Shown here: in pieces, positions 41,431-51,489 of the stretch
How the letters are laid out: every line of letters starts with the position of its first letter
How positions within the stretch are numbered: the stretch's first letter is position 1
DNA from: Amycolatopsis methanolica 239
GTDB taxonomy: Bacteria; Actinomycetota; Actinomycetes; Mycobacteriales; Pseudonocardiaceae
NCBI RefSeq assembly: GCF_000739085.1
Contig: NZ_CP009110.1
Span: 3,720,001-3,784,000 of the forward strand
Reading direction: 5' to 3'
DNA length: 64,000 nucleotides
Notes under the pieces: generated by a model
Seen by the model: the letters and a program-made list of their open reading frames with translations, nothing else
Database searches by the model: none
What the model was told of the DNA's origin: nothing
Program-made: the position numbers and the translations under genes

Positions 41431-41560
41431 ACATCCGGCACCTGCGAAACCCGTTGGCAACAAAAGCCGGGTTCCGAAACGTGCCGGTGTTCCGGAGGCA
41501 ACGCCCCCGACATCGCGGGCCGGTGAACTACTCCCATCACCGCAGATGGGGAGGAAACCC
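41431..41560 (+). ncRNA. Predicted structured leader RNA of the Nit1C-type operon
   Basis: An outer stem pairs ACA-CCGGCAC (41431-41441, bulged T at 41434) with GTGCCGGTGT (41481-41490), ten base pairs. An internal loop (CTGCGA / CCGAAAC) follows, then an inner stem AACCC (41448-41452) with GGGTT (41469-41473), a 3-base bulge, GGC/GCC and an AACAAAA loop. Downstream, CGGTGA (41521-41526) pairs with TCACCG (41537-41542), and its loop CTCCC complements the ribosome site GGGGAGG (41549-41555). This is riboswitch-like architecture, but I do not recognise a known class. The region 41277-41430 shows nothing clear and presumably holds the promoter. Confidence 0.5.
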
Positions 41561-41839
41561 GTGCCGGAGATTGTCTTTCGCGTTCGTTGGCCGGACGCCT
41601 CCGTTCAGCAATGCTACTCGCCCTCCACGGTCGTGGAGGAGTTTTTCGTCCCCGGGGACAGCTACCCGGTCGCCGAGTTCGTCGACCGCAGCCGCACCGC
41701 GCTGAACCAGGCCTCGGAGCGCGTGCGCCGCATCTACGGGTTCGGCTGCGCGCAGGCCGCGGCCCAGCTGGCCGACATCGAGGCCCGCGCGAAGTCGTTC
41801 GAGGACGGCCGGGTCGTGGTCGAGGGGTTCGAGCGATGA
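41561..41839 (+). CDS. MSMEG_0570-family nitrogen starvation response protein
   Basis: A 92-residue protein: [47 protein letters not shown], and [19 protein letters not shown]. This pattern matches the short MSMEG_0570 family that always travels with the Nit1C/MSMEG_0565-0572 genes. GTG 41561 has GGGGAGG five bases upstream. The stop overlaps the next start (ATGA). Biochemical role unknown; Nit1C clusters have been linked to nitrogen starvation and cyanide assimilation. Confidence 0.85.
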
Positions 41840-43149
41840 ACGGCCACCACACGGTCGTCGTGGTCGGCGGAGGTCAGGCCGGCCTGTCGGCGAGCCACTG
41901 CCTGTCCGCCCGCGGCATCGACCACGTCGTGCTGGAGCGCGAGACCGCGGGCCACGAGTGGGCCGACCGCCGCTGGGACTCGTTCTGCCTGGTCACCCCG
42001 AACTGGCAGTGCCGCCTGCCCGGGTTCCCCTACCCCGGCGACGATCCCGACGGGTTCATGGTGCGCGACGAGATCGTCGCCTACCTGCGCACCTACCGGG
42101 ACGCCTTCGACTTCCCGCTCATCGAAGGGATCGAGGCGACCCGGCTGCGCCGCACCACACGCGGGTTCCAGGTGTCCACATCGGAGGGTGAGCTCACCGC
42201 CGACCACGTCGTGCTCGCCACCGGCCCCTACCAGGTGCCGCTGATCCCGCGGATGGCCGAGCGGCTGCCCTCGGACGTGGTGCAGGTCCACTCCGCGGAC
42301 TACCGCAACCCCGAACAACTACCGCCGGGTGAGGTGCTCGTCGTCGGCACCGGCCAGTCCGGCTGCCAGATCGCCGAAGACCTGCACCTGGCCGGCCGCC
42401 GCGTGCACCTGGCCGTGGGCAGCGCGCCGCGCGTGGCCCGCCGCTACCGGGGCCGCGACGTCGTGGCCTGGCTGGACGACATGGGCTACTACCGGCGCGG
42501 CATCGACGAGTTCGCCGACGCCGACGCCGTCCGCTTCCGCGCCAACCACTACGTCACCGGCCGCGACGGCGGGCGCGACATCGACCTGCGCGCCTTCGCC
42601 CGCGACGGCATGCGACTCTACGGCCGGCTCACCGGAATCAACGGCGGGCGGCTGACCTTCGCCCAGGACCTGAGCCACAACCTCGACGCCGCCGACGCCG
42701 TCTCCGAAGGCATCAAGGACTCCATCGACACCTGGATCACCGCCCACGCCATCGACGCGCCACACGAGGACCGGTACGTCCCGGTGTGGCAGCCGGACAC
42801 CGAACCGTCCGAACTGGACCTCCACACCAGCGGCATCACCTCCGTCGTGTGGAGCACCGGTTTCGGCCGCGACCACCGCTGGATCGAGGTGCCGGTGTTC
42901 GACGGCCGCGGCTACCCCACCCACGAGCGCGGCGTCACCAGCTGCCCCGGCCTGTATTTCATCGGCCTGCCCTGGCAGCACACCTGGGGTTCCGGCCGCT
43001 TCTGCGGGGTCGCCGAGGACGCGGAGTACCTCGCCGCGCACATCGCCTCCACCAGCCGCCGCACCGACGGGCTGCACTGGATCGCGGGCACCCCCGACAG
43101 CACCTACCCGGCCGACGAGTACTGGACCGCGCCCCGGACGGTGGCCTGA
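41836..43149 (+). CDS. MSMEG_0569-family flavin-dependent oxidoreductase
   Basis: A 437-residue flavoprotein: [22 protein letters not shown] (FAD), [47 protein letters not shown] (NADPH Rossmann) and [21 protein letters not shown]. It resembles flavin monooxygenases of the FMO/BVMO type. In the Nit1C cluster a flavoprotein of this kind is a constant member. Overlaps its neighbours on both sides (ATGA), so it is tightly coupled in the operon. Confidence 0.88.
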
Positions 43150-43967
43150 TGCCGGTCAACGACGCGCACCGCCACCTCGGCGTGCTGCCCGCCTACCCGT
43201 TCTACGGCGGGCCCGCCGTGCACCCGGACCTGGGCGCCCGCGCCACCCTCGACGAGCTGATCGCCGACCTCGACGCCGAAGGCACCGAGCGCGCGCTGGT
43301 CATCCCCAACTACGGGGTGCCGGATCCGGAGATCGCGTTCTCCTTCAACGAACTCTGCGTCGAAGCCGCGCAGCGCGACGACCGGATCCGCGCCGGGCTG
43401 TGGGTGTCGCCCTTGGAGCGCGACGCCGAGCGCACCGCGAAGGCCCTGAGCCTGGCCACCGAGCCGGGCGTGCGGGCGCTGAAGCTGAGCTTCCTGCTCG
43501 GCGGCCGCCCCACCGACCCGGCCTGCCGCCCCGGCCTGGACCGGATCTTCGCCGCCGCCCGCGACCACGACCTGGTCGTCCACGTGCACACCTCGCCCGG
43601 CGCGGCGTCCGACATCGACGAGGTCGGCACGCTGGTCGAGCACTACGGCGACGACGTCAAGGTGCACCTGGTGCACTTCGGCGGCGGCATGAGCGGCCAC
43701 ATCAAGCTCGTGGGCAGCCGGTTCTTCGACTGGATCGCGGCAGGCAAACAGGTCTACACCGACCTGTCCTGGGCGATCGGCTTCGCGCCGCGCTGGCTGG
43801 CCGCCGAGGTCGACCGCCGCGGCATCGGCGGCGACCGGATCCTCTTCGCCAGCGACGAGCCGTGGGGCGACCAGGCCGGCGAGTACGCCCGGCTGGCCGC
43901 CGCGGCCGGTGACGGCGAGCTCGCGGACCTGGTGTTCCGCGGCACCTTCGACAAGCTCTACGGGTGA
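43149..43967 (+). CDS. Amidohydrolase-2 family metal-dependent hydrolase
   Basis: A 272-residue TIM-barrel hydrolase: VNDAHRHLGVLPAYPF (HxH), DLVVHVHTSPGAASDIDEVG, VHLVHFGGGMSGHIKL and ILFASDEPWGDQAGEY (C-terminal Asp). It shares the amidohydrolase fold with LigI/LigJ at 2.6-4.5 kb but is not close to them. It sits inside the operon between the flavoprotein and the MSMEG_0572 gene, coupled by a TGATG overlap. Likely substrate is a product of the nitrilase or flavoprotein step; not established. Confidence 0.85.
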   Translation: MPVNDAHRHLGVLPAYPFYGGPAVHPDLGARATLDELIADLDAEGTERALVIPNYGVPDPEIAFSFNELCVEAAQRDDRIRAGLWVSPLERDAERTAKALSLATEPGVRALKLSFLLGGRPTDPACRPGLDRIFAAARDHDLVVHVHTSPGAASDIDEVGTLVEHYGDDVKVHLVHFGGGMSGHIKLVGSRFFDWIAAGKQVYTDLSWAIGFAPRWLAAEVDRRGIGGDRILFASDEPWGDQAGEYARLAAAAGDGELADLVFRGTFDKLYG

Positions 43968-44008
43968 TCCGCACCCGTGGCAACCCCGCAACAACAAGGA
44001 GATTCATC

Positions 44009-44521
44009 GTGTCCGAGCTGACTGAGACCGAGCAGCAGAGCCTCAACGAGATCCCGCACCCGTCGCTGCCGGAGGGCTCCAGCATCTACGGCGGCACCAA
44101 GGTGTTCCCGGACTACCAGGCCGAGCCCGGCCAGTCGTACTTCACGCTCGTGCACGGCATCGCGCACGAGTCGTCGGTGAGTTTCGTGGCGATCCTGCAG
44201 GCCACCCGCGCGCTGCGCAAGGGCTTCGAGTCCGCCATCTACTTCTACGGCCCCGGCTCGATGAACGCCATGGCCACCCGTGGTTTCCCGACCACCGGCA
44301 ACTCCGCGTTCCCCGGCGAGCACAACATCAACGACCAGCTCAAGACGTTCATCAAGGAGGGCGGCAAGGTCTACTGCTGCCGCTTCGGCCTGTCCCTGCA
44401 CGGGCTGCGGGAGGAGGACCTGATCGAGGGCGTCATCCCGACGCACCCGCTGGACGTGCAGGACGCGCTCATCCACTACGCCCGCAAGGGGGCGATCATC
44501 AACTCGACCTACATGTGGTGA
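44009..44521 (+). CDS. MSMEG_0572/Sll0783-family nitrogen starvation response protein
   Basis: A 170-residue protein (LPEGSSIYGGTKVFPDYQAEPGQ, VHGIAHESSVSFVAILQATRALRKG, IYFYGPGSMNAMATRGFPTTGNSAF, GKVYCCRFGLSLHGLREEDLIEG). It matches the family named after Sll0783 of Synechocystis, induced by nitrogen starvation. The fold looks DsrE/tusD-like (small alpha/beta with Cys pair CC), so a sulfur- or nitrile-handling role is conceivable. GTG 44009 follows AAGGAG. 41 bp separate it from the amidohydrolase. Confidence 0.88.
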   Translation: MSELTETEQQSLNEIPHPSLPEGSSIYGGTKVFPDYQAEPGQSYFTLVHGIAHESSVSFVAILQATRALRKGFESAIYFYGPGSMNAMATRGFPTTGNSAFPGEHNINDQLKTFIKEGGKVYCCRFGLSLHGLREEDLIEGVIPTHPLDVQDALIHYARKGAIINSTYMW

Positions 44522-44552
44522 CCCCGGGCTGACGGAAGAGGAGGCAGTGCGC

Positions 44553-45614
44553 GTGAAGACCGACAACCTGGACGCCCGGACCGACCTCGCGGTGCACGGG
44601 GTGCGCTGGGACGCGCCCGTGCGGCGCAGCAAGGGCGCCGGCCCGAGCGACGACGGGCACCTCGTCGTCGACGGTGCGAACGCGGCGCTGCCGCTGAACC
44701 CGGACAGCCCCTACACCCTGCGCGACGGCCGCGTCTACAAGGGACGGATCGACCTCGGGCTGACCGTGGAACCGGTGTCCCGCCCGAAGTTCTACGACCT
44801 GACCACCGCGGACGGCGTGCCGTACCGCAAGATCGCGCTGCTGCACGGGCGGGACGTGCTCGCCACGACCGTCGTGCAGACGTGCATCCGCTACGCCGAG
44901 GATCAGCGCTGCCGGTTCTGCACCATCGAGGAATCGCTCAAGGCCGGGGACACCGTCGCGGCGAAGACCCCGGCGCAGCTGGCCGAGGTCGCCGAGGCCG
45001 CGGTCCGGCTCGACGGGGTGCGGCAGATGGTGATGACCACCGGCACCACGGCGGGCCCGGACCGCGGCGCCCGGCACCTCGTCCGCTGCGTCAAGGCGGT
45101 GCTCGACGCGGTGCCGGGCCTGCCGGTGCAGGTGCAGATCGAGCCGCCGGGCGAGCTGTCGGTGATCGCCGACCTGCGCGCGGTGGGCGCGACCTCGATC
45201 GGCATCCACGTCGAGTCGCTTGACGACGAGGTCCGGCGGCGGTGGATGCCCGGCAAGGGCTCGGTGCCGCTGGCCGAGTACGAGGCCGCGTGGGACGAGG
45301 CGGTGCGGGTGTTCGGCCGCAACAAGGTCTCCACGTACCTGTTGATCGGCCTCGGCGAGGACCCGGACGAGCTGGTCGACGGCGCGGCGCGGCTGATCGA
45401 GCGGGGTGTGTACCCGTTCGTGGTGCCGATGCGGCCGATGGCCGGCACCCTCGCGCGGCGGGACGGCGTGCCCGGCCCGCGCGCGTCGCTGGTGCGCGAC
45501 GTGAGCGAGCGGGTCGCGAAGTTGTTGCGGGAGGCGGACATGCGCGGCGCGGACCAGGAGGCCGGGTGCGCGGCCTGCGGGGCGTGCGGCGTGCTGAGCG
45601 CGGCGGGAGCCTGA
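44553..45614 (+). CDS. MSMEG_0568-family radical SAM protein
   Basis: A 353-residue protein. The cluster motif is QTCIRYAEDQRCRFCTIEES: Cys111, Cys120 and Cys123, i.e. CX8CX2C instead of the canonical CX3CX2C. MVMTTGTTAGPDRGARHL is the GGE-like region, and the barrel continues to VPMRPMAG. A second cluster AGCAACGACG (CX2CX2C) lies at the C-terminus, suggesting an auxiliary Fe-S site. GTG 44553 is eight bases after GAGGAGG; GTG 44547 is too close. Constant member of Nit1C clusters; reaction unknown. Confidence 0.88.
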   Translation: MKTDNLDARTDLAVHGVRWDAPVRRSKGAGPSDDGHLVVDGANAALPLNPDSPYTLRDGRVYKGRIDLGLTVEPVSRPKFYDLTTADGVPYRKIALLHGRDVLATTVVQTCIRYAEDQRCRFCTIEESLKAGDTVAAKTPAQLAEVAEAAVRLDGVRQMVMTTGTTAGPDRGARHLVRCVKAVLDAVPGLPVQVQIEPPGELSVIADLRAVGATSIGIHVESLDDEVRRRWMPGKGSVPLAEYEAAWDEAVRVFGRNKVSTYLLIGLGEDPDELVDGAARLIERGVYPFVVPMRPMAGTLARRDGVPGPRASLVRDVSERVAKLLREADMRGADQEAGCAACGACGVLSAAGA

Positions 45615-45618
45615 CGTG

Positions 45619-46986
45619 ATGCCCGACGTGCTGGCCCTGCTGGGCGACTCGGCGACGCTGGCCCGCCGTCCCGCCTTCCACATCGAACCGGCCGACGCGG
45701 CCGCGGTGCGCGCCTACCACGCCCTGCGCACCGAGGTGTTCGTGCACGAGCAAGGGTTGTTCGAGGGGCACGACCTCGACGACCGTGACGACGAACCGCG
45801 CACGGTCGTCCTCGTCGCCCGCGACCGGGAGGGCACGGTCATCGGCGGCGTCCGGCTCGGCCCGGCCACCGCCGAGGACATCGGCTGGTGGCTCGGCGGG
45901 CGGCTCGTGGTGCACCCCGCGTGCCGGGGCCGGGTCGGCCCGGCACTGGTGCGAGCCGCGTGCGCGCACGCCGAGAACGCCGGGGTGCTGCGGTTCGAAG
46001 CCACCGTGCAGGCCCGCAACGAGGGCCTGTTCACCCGGCTCGGCTGGGACCGGGTCCGGCCGGTGACGGTGGCGGACACCCCGCACGTGCTGATGCGGTA
46101 CCCGATCGGCCGCATCGCCGCGCTGGCCCGGGCGACCAAGAGCGACCTCGGGCCGCTGCTGTCCGGGCTGACCGGCGTGCCCGGTTTCGTCGGCGACGAC
46201 GGGGTTCCGGTGCCCGGCAGCGATGTCGTGGCGGCGTGCGACGCGATCCTGCCGTCCATGGTGGAGCGCGACCCGGACTGGGCGGGCTGGTGCTCGGTGC
46301 TGGTCAACGTCAACGACCTCGCCGCGATGGGCGCCGAACCGGTCGGGCTGCTGGACGCGCTCGGCGCGCGGGACGCGTCGTTCGCCAGCCGCGTGCTCGG
46401 CGGGCTGCGCCGGGCGAGCCAGGCCTACGGCGTGCCCGTGCTCGGCGGCCACACGCAACTCGGGGTGCCCGCCTCGCTCGCGGTGACCGCCTTGGGTCGC
46501 GCGGACTCCCCGGTGCCCGGCGGTGGTGGACGGCCCGGCCAGCGGGTGCGGCTCACCGCCGACCTCGGCGGACGGTGGCGGCCCGGCTACGCCGGACGGC
46601 AGTGGGATTCCACGACCTCCCGCCGCACACCGGAACTGCGCGCCATGCTGACCGCCGTCGCCCGGGCACGGCCCGCGGCGGCGAAAGACGTGTCGATGGC
46701 GGGCATCGCCGGAACGCTCGGCATGCTCGCCGAGGCCAGCGGCTGCGGCGCCGTCCTCGACGTGGCCGCCGTGCCGCGGCCCCGCGGGGCGAGCGCCGGC
46801 GACTGGCTCACCTGCTTCCCCGGCTACGCCATGCTCACCACCGGGCCGCACGAGCTCGACGCCGGACCGGCGGTGAGCGCCGAGTGCGGTGAGCTGGTGG
46901 CCAGGCGCGGCGTCGCGCTGCGCTGGCCGGACGGAGAACAGACCCAGGCCATCGCGGCCGGGGTGACCGGATTGGGGACCTCATGA
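45619..46986 (+). CDS. MSMEG_0567/sll0787-type fusion: GNAT acetyltransferase + AIR synthase-like
   Basis: A 455-residue fusion. Residues about 20-155 form a GNAT domain (VRAYHALRTEVFVHEQGLFEG, LVVHPACRGRVGPALVRAA). Residues about 160-455 are a PurM/AIR-synthase-like ATP-binding fold (SDVVAACDAILPSMVERDPDWAGWCSVLVNVNDLAAMGAEP, GVPVLGGHTQLGVPASLAVTALG, AAKDVSMAGIAGTLGMLAEASGCGA). Some clusters encode these as two genes. It may acylate and ATP-activate a nitrogenous substrate. ATG 45619, preceded by in-frame GTG; stop overlaps the nitrilase start. Confidence 0.87.
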   Translation: MPDVLALLGDSATLARRPAFHIEPADAAAVRAYHALRTEVFVHEQGLFEGHDLDDRDDEPRTVVLVARDREGTVIGGVRLGPATAEDIGWWLGGRLVVHPACRGRVGPALVRAACAHAENAGVLRFEATVQARNEGLFTRLGWDRVRPVTVADTPHVLMRYPIGRIAALARATKSDLGPLLSGLTGVPGFVGDDGVPVPGSDVVAACDAILPSMVERDPDWAGWCSVLVNVNDLAAMGAEPVGLLDALGARDASFASRVLGGLRRASQAYGVPVLGGHTQLGVPASLAVTALGRADSPVPGGGGRPGQRVRLTADLGGRWRPGYAGRQWDSTTSRRTPELRAMLTAVARARPAAAKDVSMAGIAGTLGMLAEASGCGAVLDVAAVPRPRGASAGDWLTCFPGYAMLTTGPHELDAGPAVSAECGELVARRGVALRWPDGEQTQAIAAGVTGLGTS

Positions 46987-47843
46987 GCACCCTGCGGATG
47001 GCCGCGGTCGCGGCGCCCTTCGACCGCGATCTGGAGGGCGACTTCGATCGCGTCGCCGCCCTGATCGCCACCGCCCGCGCGGACGGCGTCGGCCTGCTCG
47101 CCCTGCCCGAGGCCTGCCTCGGCGGCTACCTGGCCAACCTCGACGGCGGCGCCGACGGGCCACCAGCCCTGGACGTCGACGGCCCTGAGATCAAGCGGCT
47201 GGCCGCGCTCGCCGGGGACATGGTGGTGGCCGCGGGCTACTGCGAGCACGCCGACGGACGGCTCTACAACAGCGTCGTGTGCGTGACCGGCGACGGCGTG
47301 CTGGGCAACCACCGCAAGGTGCACCAGCCGCTGTCGGAGGACGCCACCTACCGCGCCGGCGACGGGTTCGCCGCGTTCGACACGCCGGTCGGGCGGCTGG
47401 GCATGCTCATCTGCTACGACAAGGCGTTCCCCGAATCCGCCCGCAGTCTGGCCCTGGACGGCGCGGAGATCGGCGTCTGCGTCTCGGCGTGGCCGGGCAG
47501 CCGCACCAACCCCGCCGCGGACCTCGCGCAAGACCGGTGGAAACGCCGCTTCGACCTGTTCGACCAGGCGCGGGCGCTGGAGAACCAGATCGTGTGGCTG
47601 TCGGCCAACCAGTCCGGCGTGTTCGGCGACCTGCGGTTCGTCGCCGGCGCCAAGGTCGTCGACCCGGGCGGCGAGATCCTGGCCGGCACCGGAGTCGCCG
47701 CAGGCATCGCCGTCGCCGAACTCGACGTGCGGCAGGCGCTGGAGACCGCGCGCCGGTCGATGGGCCACCTGCGGGACCGGCGGCCGGCGGCCTACCCGGC
47801 GCTGGCCACCGGCGGGGAGGAACTCGCCGCGGCGCGATACTGA
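46983..47843 (+). CDS. Nitrilase-superfamily carbon-nitrogen hydrolase (intact triad)
   Basis: A 286-residue nitrilase: Glu43 in LLALPEACLGGYL, Lys112 in GNHRKVHQPLSED and Cys144 in GMLICYDKAFPESAR make up the complete Glu-Lys-Cys catalytic triad. It corresponds to the signature Nit1C nitrilase (MSMEG_0566 type), reported in Pseudomonas as the enzyme that hydrolyses cyanide to formate and ammonia; other nitriles are possible. ATGA overlap with the fusion gene. It is directly followed by a paralog with a broken triad. Confidence 0.9.
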   Translation: MSTLRMAAVAAPFDRDLEGDFDRVAALIATARADGVGLLALPEACLGGYLANLDGGADGPPALDVDGPEIKRLAALAGDMVVAAGYCEHADGRLYNSVVCVTGDGVLGNHRKVHQPLSEDATYRAGDGFAAFDTPVGRLGMLICYDKAFPESARSLALDGAEIGVCVSAWPGSRTNPAADLAQDRWKRRFDLFDQARALENQIVWLSANQSGVFGDLRFVAGAKVVDPGGEILAGTGVAAGIAVAELDVRQALETARRSMGHLRDRRPAAYPALATGGEELAAARY

Positions 47844-47847
47844 CGCG

Positions 47848-48681
47848 ATGGGGACCATCCGCATCGGAGCCGTGGCCGCGCACTTCGGCCGCGACCTCGA
47901 CTTCGACCTGCAGCGCATCGCCACGCTCATCGAGCACGCCCGCTCCTCGGGGGTGGCGCTGCTGGTGCTGCCGGACGCCGCGCTCGGCGGGTACCTCGCC
48001 GACCTGCGGCACCCCGACCCCGGCGCGCTCCCGCCCGCGCTCGCCCCGGACGACCCGCACCTGCGTAAGATCGCCGCGCTCGCCGCGGACATGGTGGTGT
48101 GCGTCGGGTACTGCGAGGCCGACGGCGAGCGGCGCTACAACGCGGCGGTGTGCGTCACCGGCGACGGGGTGCTCGGCAGGCACCGCAAGGTGCACCAGCC
48201 GCCCGGCGAGGTCGCCGCCTACTCGGCCGGCACCTCGTTCGCCGCGTTCGACTCGCCGGTGGGGCGGCTGGGCATGCTCATCGACTACGACAAGACCTTC
48301 CCCGAATCGGCGCGCAGCCTCGCCCTCGACGGCGCCGAGATCCTCGCCTGCCTGTCGGCGTGGCCCACCAGCATCACCAACCGCGCGCCCCGCATGTCGC
48401 AGGACCGGCAGGCCCGGTTGTTCGACCTCTACGACCAGGCGCGCGCGGCGGAGAACCAGGTGGTGCTGGCCTCGTCGAACCAGACCGGCGCGATGGGCGG
48501 GATGCGCTTCCTGGGCCAGGCCAAGGTGGTCGGGCCCGGCGGGGACATCCTGGCCCGCACCTGGAGCAAGGCCGGCATCGCGATCGCCGAGGTCGACGTC
48601 GCCGGCGAGGTCGCCACCGCCCGGCGGGTGCTGCACCACCTGGCCGAACGCAAACCCGACGCCTACTGGAGCCGCACGTGA
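47848..48681 (+). CDS. Nitrilase paralog with lost catalytic residues (pseudoenzyme)
   Basis: A 277-residue tandem paralog of the preceding nitrilase, alignable end to end (GAVAAHFGRDLDFDLQRIATL; GVLGRHRKVHQPPGEVAAYSAG; RLGMLIDYDKTFPESARSLALDGAEI). The catalytic Cys is Asp146 (codon GAC) and the catalytic Glu is Asp43 (LPDAALGGYL); Lys114 remains. No nitrilase chemistry through a thioimidate is expected. The frame, codon use and coupling to the glycosyltransferase (GTGA) are intact, so it is maintained, perhaps as a subunit of a mixed nitrilase filament, a binding protein or a different catalyst. Confidence 0.9.
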   Translation: MGTIRIGAVAAHFGRDLDFDLQRIATLIEHARSSGVALLVLPDAALGGYLADLRHPDPGALPPALAPDDPHLRKIAALAADMVVCVGYCEADGERRYNAAVCVTGDGVLGRHRKVHQPPGEVAAYSAGTSFAAFDSPVGRLGMLIDYDKTFPESARSLALDGAEILACLSAWPTSITNRAPRMSQDRQARLFDLYDQARAAENQVVLASSNQTGAMGGMRFLGQAKVVGPGGDILARTWSKAGIAIAEVDVAGEVATARRVLHHLAERKPDAYWSRT

Positions 48682-49739
48682 GGATCGCCCTGCTCAGCTA
48701 CTCGACGAAGCCCCGTGGCGGGGTCGTGCACACGCTGGCCCTGGCCGAGGCGCTGGCGGCCGAGGGCGCGGAGGTGACCGTGTGGTCGCTGGGCCGCGGC
48801 GGGGACAGCGGGTTCTTCCGCCTCCTCGACCCGGCGGTGAGCGTGCGGATCGTGCCGTTCCCGGAGGTCGAGGGCGAGGGCGTGGGTCCGCGGATCCTGC
48901 GCTCGATCGACGTGCTGCGCGCGGCGTTCGACCCGGGCGGCTACGACATCGTGCATGCCCAGGACTGCATCAGCGCCAACGCGGTCGAGCGGGTCGTGCG
49001 CACCGTGCACCACATCGACCACTTCACCACGCCGGAGCTGGTCGCCTGCCACGAACGCGCGATCCGCCGCCCGTACGCGCACGTCTGCGTGTCCGCCGCG
49101 GTGGCCGGGGAGCTGCGCGAGGGCTGGGGCGTCGAGGCGACGGTGATCCCGAACGGCGTCGACTACGAGCGGTTCGCCAGTGCCGCGCCGGATCCGGCGT
49201 GGTCGGGCCGGTTTGTGCTGTCGGTGGGCGGGATCGAGCCGCGCAAGGGTTCGCTGGACCTGCTGGAGGCCTACGCGCTGCTGCGTGAGACCGACCCGGA
49301 CGTGCGGCTGGTGATCGCGGGCGGCGAGACGCTGTTCGACTACCGCGACTACCGGATGGCGTGGGAGAAGCGGGCCGCCGAGCTGGGCGTGGAGCCGGTG
49401 GTGCTGGGCCCGGTCGCCCACGACGCGCTGCCGCCCCTGGTCGCGGCGACGGACGTGTTCGCCTTCCCCTCGACCAAGGAAGGCTTCGGCCTCGCGGCGA
49501 TGGAGGCGCTGGCTGCCGGGGTCCCGGTGGTCACCCGTGAACTCCCCGTGCTGCGCGAGGTGTTCGACGGCGCCGCCCGGTTCGCCTCCGACCCCGCCGG
49601 CCTGGCCGACCAGATGCGAGCCGCGCTGGCTGACCCGGAGAGCCTGCGAGAACCCGGCCGTCAGCTGGCGGCGTCCTACAGCTGGGGCGCCGCGGCGCGG
49701 GCACACCTGACGCTGTACCGGGGCCTGCTGGCGGAGTGA
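48678..49739 (+). CDS. MSMEG_0565-family glycosyltransferase (GT4)
   Basis: A 353-residue GT-B glycosyltransferase: IALLSYSTKPRGGVVHTLALAEAL (N-terminal Gly-rich loop), VIPNGVDYERF, FVLSVGGIEPRKGSLDLLEAY and the EX7E motif FPSTKEGFGLAAMEALAAGVPVV. It transfers a sugar from a nucleotide donor to an unknown acceptor; its constant presence in this cluster suggests a glycosylated product or cofactor. Last gene of the operon. Confidence 0.88.
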   Translation: MRIALLSYSTKPRGGVVHTLALAEALAAEGAEVTVWSLGRGGDSGFFRLLDPAVSVRIVPFPEVEGEGVGPRILRSIDVLRAAFDPGGYDIVHAQDCISANAVERVVRTVHHIDHFTTPELVACHERAIRRPYAHVCVSAAVAGELREGWGVEATVIPNGVDYERFASAAPDPAWSGRFVLSVGGIEPRKGSLDLLEAYALLRETDPDVRLVIAGGETLFDYRDYRMAWEKRAAELGVEPVVLGPVAHDALPPLVAATDVFAFPSTKEGFGLAAMEALAAGVPVVTRELPVLREVFDGAARFASDPAGLADQMRAALADPESLREPGRQLAASYSWGAAARAHLTLYRGLLAE

Positions 49740-49779: not shown

Positions 49780-51489
49780 ATGTCCGGCGCAGTGCTCGTC
49801 GCCGTCGACGGGGATGCGGACGTACTCGGGGATGTCGAGCGGGAGCTGCGGGAGCGCTACGCCCGGCACTACCGGATCGTGTGCCTGTCCTCGCCCCAGA
49901 AGGCGCTGGCCGTCCTCGAGGAACTCGCCGGCGCGGGCGATGAGGTCGCGCTCGTCCTCGCTGGCCAGTGGCTGCCCGGGATGACCGGCAGCGAGCTGCT
50001 GGACCGCACGCGCCGCCTCCACCCCCACGCCAAACGCGGGCTGCTGATCGCGTGGGGCGACTGGGGCGACCGCGAAACCGGCGAAGCGATCTACACCTCG
50101 ATCGCCCGCGGGCTCATCGACCACTACGTCCTGCGGCCGATGGCCACCCCGGACGAAGCGTTCCACCAGGCGATCTCGAGTTCGCTGCTGGACTGGGCCG
50201 AGGCACGGCGGACCTCGCCCTACACCATCCACGTCATCGGCGAGACCTGGTCCGGCCGGGCCTACGAGCTGCGCCAGGCCCTCGGCCGCTGCGCGATCCC
50301 GCACTCGTTCTGCCTGGCCGACTCCAACGAGGGCCGCGCACGCCTGGCCACGGTGGGCGCCGGGATCCGGCTGCCGGTCGTCCTCTTCCCCGACGGCACG
50401 GTCCTCACCGACCCGAGCAACACCGAGCTGGCGTTGGCGTCGGGCTCTCCGGTGAGCCCCGAGCGGATGGAGTTCGACCTGGTCATCGTGGGCGCCGGGC
50501 CGGCCGGGCTGTCCGCGGCGGTGTACGGCGCCTCGGAGGGGTTCAGCACGCTGGTCGTCGACGAAGGCGGGCTCGGCGGCCAGGCGACCTCCAGCTCGCT
50601 GATCCGCAACTACCTCGGGTTCCCCCGCGGCGTCAGCGGCCGCCGCCTCGCCCAGCAGGCCTACGACCAGGCGTGGGTCTTCGGCGCGAAGTTCGCGTTC
50701 ATGCGGCAGGCCCGCGCTGTGGAGCGCGCGGGCGACTCGCTGGTCGTCACCCTGTCCGGCGACGCCCGCGTGCGGACCCGCGCGGTCCTCCTGGCCACCG
50801 GCGCGAGCTACCACCAGCTCGGGGTGCCTGCTCTGGAAGCCCTCAGCGGCGCCGGGGTCTTCTACGGCCCGCCGTCCTCGGAAGCGCCCGCCATGACCGG
50901 CCGCGACGTGTACGTGCTCGGTGGCGGCAACTCGGCCGGCCAGGCCGCCCTGTACCTCGCCCGCTACGCCCGCAGCGTCACGCTCGTGGTCCGCGCCTCG
51001 TCGCTGGACGCCGGCATGTCGCAGTACCTGACGCGCGAGATCGCGGCGACCCCCGGGCTGGAAGTCCGCACCGGAACCGAGGTCGTGGGCGGCGGCGGTG
51101 ACGGACGGCTGGACCACCTCGTGCTCCGCGACCGCCTGACCGGCGGCGAGGAGACCACCGGCGCGGACGGCCTGTTCATCATGATCGGGGCCCGGCCGCA
51201 CACCCGCTGGCTGCCACCCGAGGTCGACCGGGACGAACAGGGGTTCGTCCGCACCGGATCCGACCTCCGCGACCGGACCTGGCCGCTGCAGCGCAACCCG
51301 CTGCTCCTCGAAACGAGCATGCCCGGCGTGTTCGCCGCCGGCGACGTCCGGCACGGCTCGGTGAAACGCGTGGCCTCGGCCGTCGGCGAGGGCTCGGTGG
51401 CGATCCAGCTCCTGCACCGGCTGTTCGCGGTGAACGCCCAGCAACCCCGCGGACGCGCGAAGGAAACACGACCCGCACCGGCGAGCTGA
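49780..51489 (+). CDS. Fused receiver-domain/thioredoxin-reductase-like flavoprotein, degenerate active sites
   Basis: A 569-residue fusion. Residues 1-130 are a CheY-like receiver in which the phospho-acceptor position reads VALVLAGQWLPGMTG (Gly62 instead of Asp). Residues about 145-220 look like a glutaredoxin/thioredoxin-type module (IHVIGETWSGRAYELRQAL). Residues 230-560 are thioredoxin-reductase-like (FDLVIVGAGPAGLSAAVYGAS; VYVLGGGNSAGQAALYLAR; GVFAAGDVRHGSVKRVASAVGEG) but the CXXC loop is replaced by YGPPSSEAPAMTG. It probably binds FAD and NAD(P)H without dithiol chemistry. Separate from the operon upstream by 40 bp. Confidence 0.87.
   Translation: MSGAVLVAVDGDADVLGDVERELRERYARHYRIVCLSSPQKALAVLEELAGAGDEVALVLAGQWLPGMTGSELLDRTRRLHPHAKRGLLIAWGDWGDRETGEAIYTSIARGLIDHYVLRPMATPDEAFHQAISSSLLDWAEARRTSPYTIHVIGETWSGRAYELRQALGRCAIPHSFCLADSNEGRARLATVGAGIRLPVVLFPDGTVLTDPSNTELALASGSPVSPERMEFDLVIVGAGPAGLSAAVYGASEGFSTLVVDEGGLGGQATSSSLIRNYLGFPRGVSGRRLAQQAYDQAWVFGAKFAFMRQARAVERAGDSLVVTLSGDARVRTRAVLLATGASYHQLGVPALEALSGAGVFYGPPSSEAPAMTGRDVYVLGGGNSAGQAALYLARYARSVTLVVRASSLDAGMSQYLTREIAATPGLEVRTGTEVVGGGGDGRLDHLVLRDRLTGGEETTGADGLFIMIGARPHTRWLPPEVDRDEQGFVRTGSDLRDRTWPLQRNPLLLETSMPGVFAAGDVRHGSVKRVASAVGEGSVAIQLLHRLFAVNAQQPRGRAKETRPAPAS

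Follow-up and report, generated by a model that had tools for sequence, protein, structure and literature searches.

NitB, encoded on the + strand at 47848–48681 of the window (the whole stretch of DNA that was analysed, 64,000 nucleotides of Amycolatopsis methanolica 239), is a CN-hydrolase paralogue that has lost the catalytic cysteine. Comparison with its homologues establishes this loss, together with the conservation of the catalytic-site residues and a linkage to the genes of a glycosyltransferase and of a second CN hydrolase, NitA. Because NitB is strongly conserved and holds a near-constant place before the glycosyltransferase gene, it probably has a new job and is not a decaying copy.

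The Glu-Lys-Cys catalytic triad of the nitrilase superfamily is replaced in NitB by Asp43, Lys114 and Asp146, within an intact open reading frame. Codon 146, which would encode the catalytic Cys, reads GAC (48283–48285, + strand). The neighbouring NitA (46983–47843, + strand) keeps an intact Glu43-Lys112-Cys144 triad. A second Glu is retained in both proteins (Glu119 in NitA, Glu121 in NitB), which share 62% identity. The reading frames, coordinates and residues given for this pair by the sequence-only reading all hold, and its observation on NitB is right and understated. It had described the NitB frame as intact and translationally coupled, in agreement with a start 4 nt after the NitA stop and a 4-nt overlap with the glycosyltransferase gene, whose GTG start, placed from the family match, lies at 48678. 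As the genes overlap downstream and are separated by a gap upstream, NitB is coupled more tightly to the glycosyltransferase gene than to NitA.

Both proteins match the CN_hydrolase profile (PF00795, cut-off 23.2), with 139.1 bits for NitA and 122.1 bits for NitB. The AlphaFold2 model of NitB (mean pLDDT 89.9, pTM 0.91, from an alignment of 45 sequences) has the predicted alpha-beta-beta-alpha nitrilase fold, and the NitA model reaches a mean pLDDT of 87.4. Among solved structures, the NitB model is matched best by a Pyrococcus amidase/nitrilase and by a plant N-carbamoylputrescine amidohydrolase. Its fold resembles those of the Pyrococcus (6ypa, 1j31, 3ivz) and MtCPA (5h8i–5h8l) chains, with TM-scores (query length) of about 0.78–0.84 at 23–26% identity. 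In contrast to NitB with its Asp, these are Cys enzymes, several of the entries being Cys mutants.

The operon in the window begins with an MSMEG_0570 family small protein (41564–41839; 118.8 bits, cut-off 79.85), followed by an MSMEG_0569 family flavin-dependent oxidoreductase (41836–43149; 661.5 bits), an Amidohydro_2 (PF04909) protein (43149–43967; Pfam match, start inferred by eye), an MSMEG_0572/Sll0783 family protein (43964–44521; family match, start approximate), an MSMEG_0568 family radical SAM protein (44547–45614; 497.5 bits), an MSMEG_0567 family protein with GNAT and AIR-synthase-like parts (45616–46986; family match), NitA, NitB and an MSMEG_0565 family glycosyltransferase (48678–49739; 453.7 bits, cut-off 259.85), all on the + strand. 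The Amidohydro_2 protein matched no NCBIfam model at E ≤0.001 and is present in most of the actinobacterial operon versions seen. Directly after the operon, 49780–51489 encodes a protein of 569 aa; its FAD part, which is thioredoxin-reductase-like, starts at residue 232, and the N-terminal part has no Pfam match. Upstream, a GlnR-box-like site (41446–41461, + strand) is suggestive only, since the pattern was picked after this site had been noticed; it is the sole pattern match in the window, where 0.72 are expected by chance. With the pattern so picked, loose GlnR-like boxes occur in 36/144 upstream regions, against 85/2880 random windows and 116/2880 shuffles.

The pair had been assigned to a Nit1C operon, and this assignment stands for the surrounding genes but not for the nitrilase. 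The Nit1C gene set, with the radical SAM, GNAT/AIR-synthase, 0572, 0570 and flavoprotein genes, is found together in the window. NitA, however, is not the Nit1C nitrilase: against the Nit6803 model (TIGR04048, cut-off 503), NitA and NitB score only 45 and 24 bits, and no Nit6803-type nitrilase scores over the cut-off in the whole genome. By its gene content, the operon is a variant Nit1C that lacks the Nit6803 nitrilase. The Nit1C cluster of the original description (PMC1199592) and the Pseudomonas nit1C (PMC11049912) have one nitrilase each, as far as these accounts of gene content go. They share the MSMEG_0572, 0568, 0567, 0570 and 0569 families with the window, and in some cases the glycosyltransferase. 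Instead of the Nit6803/NitC nitrilase, which is absent from the genome, the window operon has NitA, NitB and the amidohydrolase.

A contig scan with NitB, of which the best 80 of 414 relatives were kept, returned Amycolatopsis, Streptomyces, Saccharothrix, Acrocarpospora, Herbidospora and others among these 80. In genome samples that overlap each other, and with NitA-type matches counted too, matches were found in 9/19 genomes at the level of the genus (E ≤1e-60) and, at E ≤1e-50, in 64/397 for the order, 49/393 for the class and 16/396 for the phylum. We analysed 205 of 298 stretches (L005–L012, L021–L100, L127–L143 and L199–L298), among which certain genomes are counted twice, as a named entry and under a G handle. 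Most of the other stretches cover the same places again as short duplicates, or are outgroups or proteobacterial clusters; one matching genome, G1089, was left out as well. The 205 stretches contain 377 matches: 173 to NitB (155 distinct proteins), 197 with Glu-Lys-Cys (190 NitA and seven sisters of NitB) and seven others, comprising three pieces of broken or cut genes and four odd copies (L216–L219).

Asp146 and Lys114 occur in 173/173 NitB matches. Glu121 occurs in 169/173, with Val in L256, L257 and L264 and Asp in L130, and position 43 is Asp in 165 matches, Gly in six, Gln in one and His in one. Codon 146 is GAC or GAT throughout the 173 NitB matches and TGC or TGT in 190/190 NitA matches. 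Since the change from Cys to Asp takes two base changes and Asp recurs in every NitB homologue examined, a sequencing error is excluded, and the doubt that resequencing might return TGC at this codon falls away. Eight sites are conserved at ≥90% in each group with differing residues: C146D, A150T, W188Q, R191L, L201A, V222L, M262L and D267E.

NitB had been taken as kept rather than decaying, and a dN/dS comparison of the pair bears this out. Over 24 disjoint close pairs, restricted to dS 0.05–0.3, the median omega is 0.11 for NitB and 0.16 for NitA, with NitB lower in 17/24. A wider comparison of 8918 pairs (medians 0.35 for NitA and 0.34 for NitB) was set aside, as synonymous sites look saturated. 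There are no short copies, the shortest of the 173 NitB matches having at least 263 aa. Across 152 distinct NitA/NitB pairs, the mean pairwise identity is 0.72 for NitB versus 0.69 for NitA; 84 sites in NitB and 82 in NitA are conserved at ≥97% (weighted), 57 positions being shared, and the catalytic-site residues are about as conserved in NitB as in NitA. By these measures, purifying selection acts on NitB no less strongly than on NitA, and the Asp is neither confined to this strain nor accompanied by relaxed selection.

NitB had further been called a tandem paralogue of NitA, which does not survive in the sense of a duplicate. A quick tree of 113 rows groups NitB in one clade (SH-aLRT 99) whose sister group is seven Glu-Lys-Cys proteins (94). 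A more careful tree, built from 67 rows after columns 43 and 146 had been blanked, unites the 26 NitB rows with bootstrap/SH-aLRT support of 100/95 and splits NitB plus six active sister rows from 35 NitA with support 95/85. Both trees give the NitB clade a single origin, and since both put Glu-Lys-Cys sisters closer, they do not support NitB as a simple tandem duplicate of NitA. These closest relatives (L133, L135, L136, L138, L140, L141 and L142, six of them in the careful tree) are separate enzymes from other actinobacterial classes, not NitA. No operon genes were found around the seven sisters in the fetched stretches, of which L142 starts at a contig end. Gln188 is common to NitB and the sisters (7/7), whereas the sisters keep an intact triad and lie away from the operon. 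On the simplest reading of the trees, NitB would descend from an active enzyme, with the Cys lost once on the stem. In three of the seven sister loci (L133, L136 and L142), the gene that follows immediately downstream is an asparagine synthase gene.

The glycosyltransferase (MSMEG_0565-type) is the next operon gene after NitB in 170/173 loci, and the distance from the NitB stop to the glycosyltransferase match start is −4 nt in 103 of these 170. The nearest upstream operon gene is NitA in 117 loci, 0569 in 43, 0567 in ten and 0572 in one, with none in two (n=173); these neighbour counts see only nine query families, so that other genes, such as another flavoprotein in L130, are invisible to them. 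The pairing of NitB and glycosyltransferase holds across three operon layouts, and in L269 the two sit together at the opposite end of the cluster. NitA lies in the same stretch at 171/173 NitB loci (169 with intact Glu-Lys-Cys, one broken in L040, a locus with several further split genes, and one cut by the contig end in L237). For L223, NitA is on a different contig of the genome, and L199 (G433) is the only NitB locus without NitA. Among the best 80 of 414 relatives from the contig scan, NitA is upstream on the same strand in 80/80 (broken in L040), with ≤60 nt between the NitA stop and the NitB match start in 77/80 and 1.4 kb in L049. The expectation that the Cys-less clade sits next to an active nitrilase is thus borne out nearly always for proximity, but the gene that most constantly adjoins NitB is that of the glycosyltransferase downstream.

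The glycosyltransferase is missing next to NitB in L199, L223 and L245, and the genomes of L223 and L245 carry it elsewhere (G623, G868). We had considered whether L245 proves a dependence of NitB on the glycosyltransferase; this was dropped, as the glycosyltransferase is present elsewhere in that genome and NitA is relaxed too. The NitB of G433 (L199) is an orphan: its genome lacks both the radical SAM gene and NitA, and nothing there matches the glycosyltransferase family above the cut-off. By eye, this NitB adjoins apparent chromate-resistance and chromate-transport genes. Conversely, NitB is absent from 17 loci that have both NitA and the glycosyltransferase, one of which (L220) belongs to a genome with NitB at another locus, and three proteobacterial clusters examined have the glycosyltransferase and a Nit6803 nitrilase without NitB. 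Judging from these loci and clusters, the glycosyltransferase needs no NitB in general. A search for NitB remnants in the NitB-less operons gave only short weak matches, the best at positions 257–275, where, as we read it, the searched stretch overlaps the NitA end.

The sequence-only reading knew of no standard Nit1C layout with such a second member. The layout in fact recurs in many actinobacteria and, by gene order, in Mycobacterium smegmatis MSMEG_0565–0572. This gpr cluster is reported to show strong GlnR-dependent induction and to support peroxide resistance (PMC6039565). As described there, it has the same gene families as the window, including a second CN hydrolase that directly precedes the glycosyltransferase; MSMEG_0566 is named a putative aliphatic amidase, a nitrilase-like domain is reported at 0571, and that description of MSMEG_0566 does not mention a missing cysteine. 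The gpr order (0572, NitA, 0570, 0569, 0568, 0567, NitB, glycosyltransferase) is found in L244, L287, L289, L290, L297 and L298, and in ten NitB loci NitB is flanked directly by 0567 on its upstream side and by the glycosyltransferase on its downstream side, as in the gpr cluster. From gene order alone, MSMEG_0566 is predicted to correspond to NitB and to carry its Asp. No Cys-less nitrilase clade was found in the titles and abstracts of the open-licence PMC literature searched.

We tentatively favour, at somewhat less than even likelihood, the idea that NitB is neofunctionalised and has a non-thiol pocket tied to the glycosyltransferase step, while NitA carries out thiol-dependent hydrolysis. 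NitB would then be an ancient nitrilase-superfamily protein, kept by selection and adapted to a different task in the Nit1C-like operon. Lacking the Cys, it would be unable to use the known thioester mechanism, would no longer form a cysteine thioester and presumably has no amidase or nitrilase activity. Instead, it may bind the small amide or acid of the pathway in a pocket held by Asp146, Lys114 and Glu121, and may serve the glycosyltransferase encoded next by holding, presenting or steering the acceptor. A ligand pocket is more likely than a purely structural role, because the catalytic site is conserved about as strictly as that of NitA, and the glycosyltransferase step is our best guess for the functional tie because the two genes travel together across three layouts.

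Alternatively, NitB could be a dead subunit of a NitA-NitB hetero-oligomer, tuning the assembly, stability or specificity of NitA, which we regard as possible and rather doubtful. The regular presence of NitA in the same stretch, and its position upstream on the same strand among the best 80 of 414 relatives, agree with such a complex, as do several of the differing sites, which in the predicted model lie on helices at 146–150 and 187–203. Such helices form the dimer interface in the nitrilase superfamily. Nevertheless, the catalytic-site residues of a pure scaffold would be expected to drift, which those of NitB have not done. The nearest upstream operon gene is 0569 or 0567, not NitA, in 53/173 loci, and NitA occurs without NitB in the 17 glycosyltransferase-bearing loci. 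The orphan NitB of G433 weakens the idea without refuting it. Distance co-evolution failed to discriminate between the glycosyltransferase and NitA as partner: over 136 loci, the partial correlations are 0.09 for each. The strongest partial correlation of NitB in this set is with the 0572 (Sll0783-like) protein (0.45).

NitB may also be an enzyme in its own right, with Asp146 as nucleophile or general base acting with Lys114 and Glu121 in a non-amide reaction. We consider this unlikely. Enzymes of the alpha/beta-hydrolase fold offer a precedent: their elbow nucleophile may be Ser, Cys or Asp, and those with Asp are dehalogenases and epoxide hydrolases. Asp146 and Lys114 without exception, the near-constant Glu121, and Leu191 and Ala201, found in 173/173 NitB matches and different in the Glu-Lys-Cys sisters, speak for such an enzyme. 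On the other side, position 43, the general base in active relatives, is Gly, Gln or His in 8/173, Glu121 is itself replaced in four loci, and we know of no nitrilase-superfamily member that uses Asp in this way. It is improbable that NitB represents the first known nitrilase-fold branch with an elbow Asp for new chemistry, for example attack on an sp3 carbon via an ester intermediate, in step with the partner glycosyltransferase. The hetero-oligomer and Asp chemistry retain their share of likelihood because the two correlations are equally low and the glycosyltransferase occurs without NitB.

Decay of NitB, or an erroneous Asp codon, is very improbable and is refuted for the clade as a whole by the two-base change in 173/173, the low omega and the full lengths, even though the operon-less L199 (8/100) and L245 without a nearby glycosyltransferase (7/100) have changed more at near-invariant NitB sites, since L130, which has the operon with NitA and the glycosyltransferase, shows 10/100.

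A widespread actinobacterial protein, annotated as a ‘carbon-nitrogen hydrolase’ in a Rhodococcus plasmid record, for example, is thus without the residue by which this chemistry is defined. If this holds, the annotation misleads, probably including that of MSMEG_0566. A pseudo-nitrilase with a conserved pocket beside a glycosyltransferase may also offer a handle on the product of Nit1C-type clusters.

We also notice four NitA-like copies (L216 7385, L217 7535, L218 7025 and L219 7461; G770, G777, G764 and G756) in which the Lys loop is shortened and triad residues are missing. Lys is lost in all four and Cys is changed to Ser or Gly in two, and their stretches have no other operon gene except a 0568 match in L218. 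These are apparently separate inactivations within one genus. Finally, a different FAD-dependent oxidoreductase stands at the place of MSMEG_0569 in 7/7 gaps read, six of them in loci without NitB: between NitA and the glycosyltransferase in L201, L202, L203, L205, L210 and L214, and between NitA and NitB in L130, with Pfam scans on L203 and L130.
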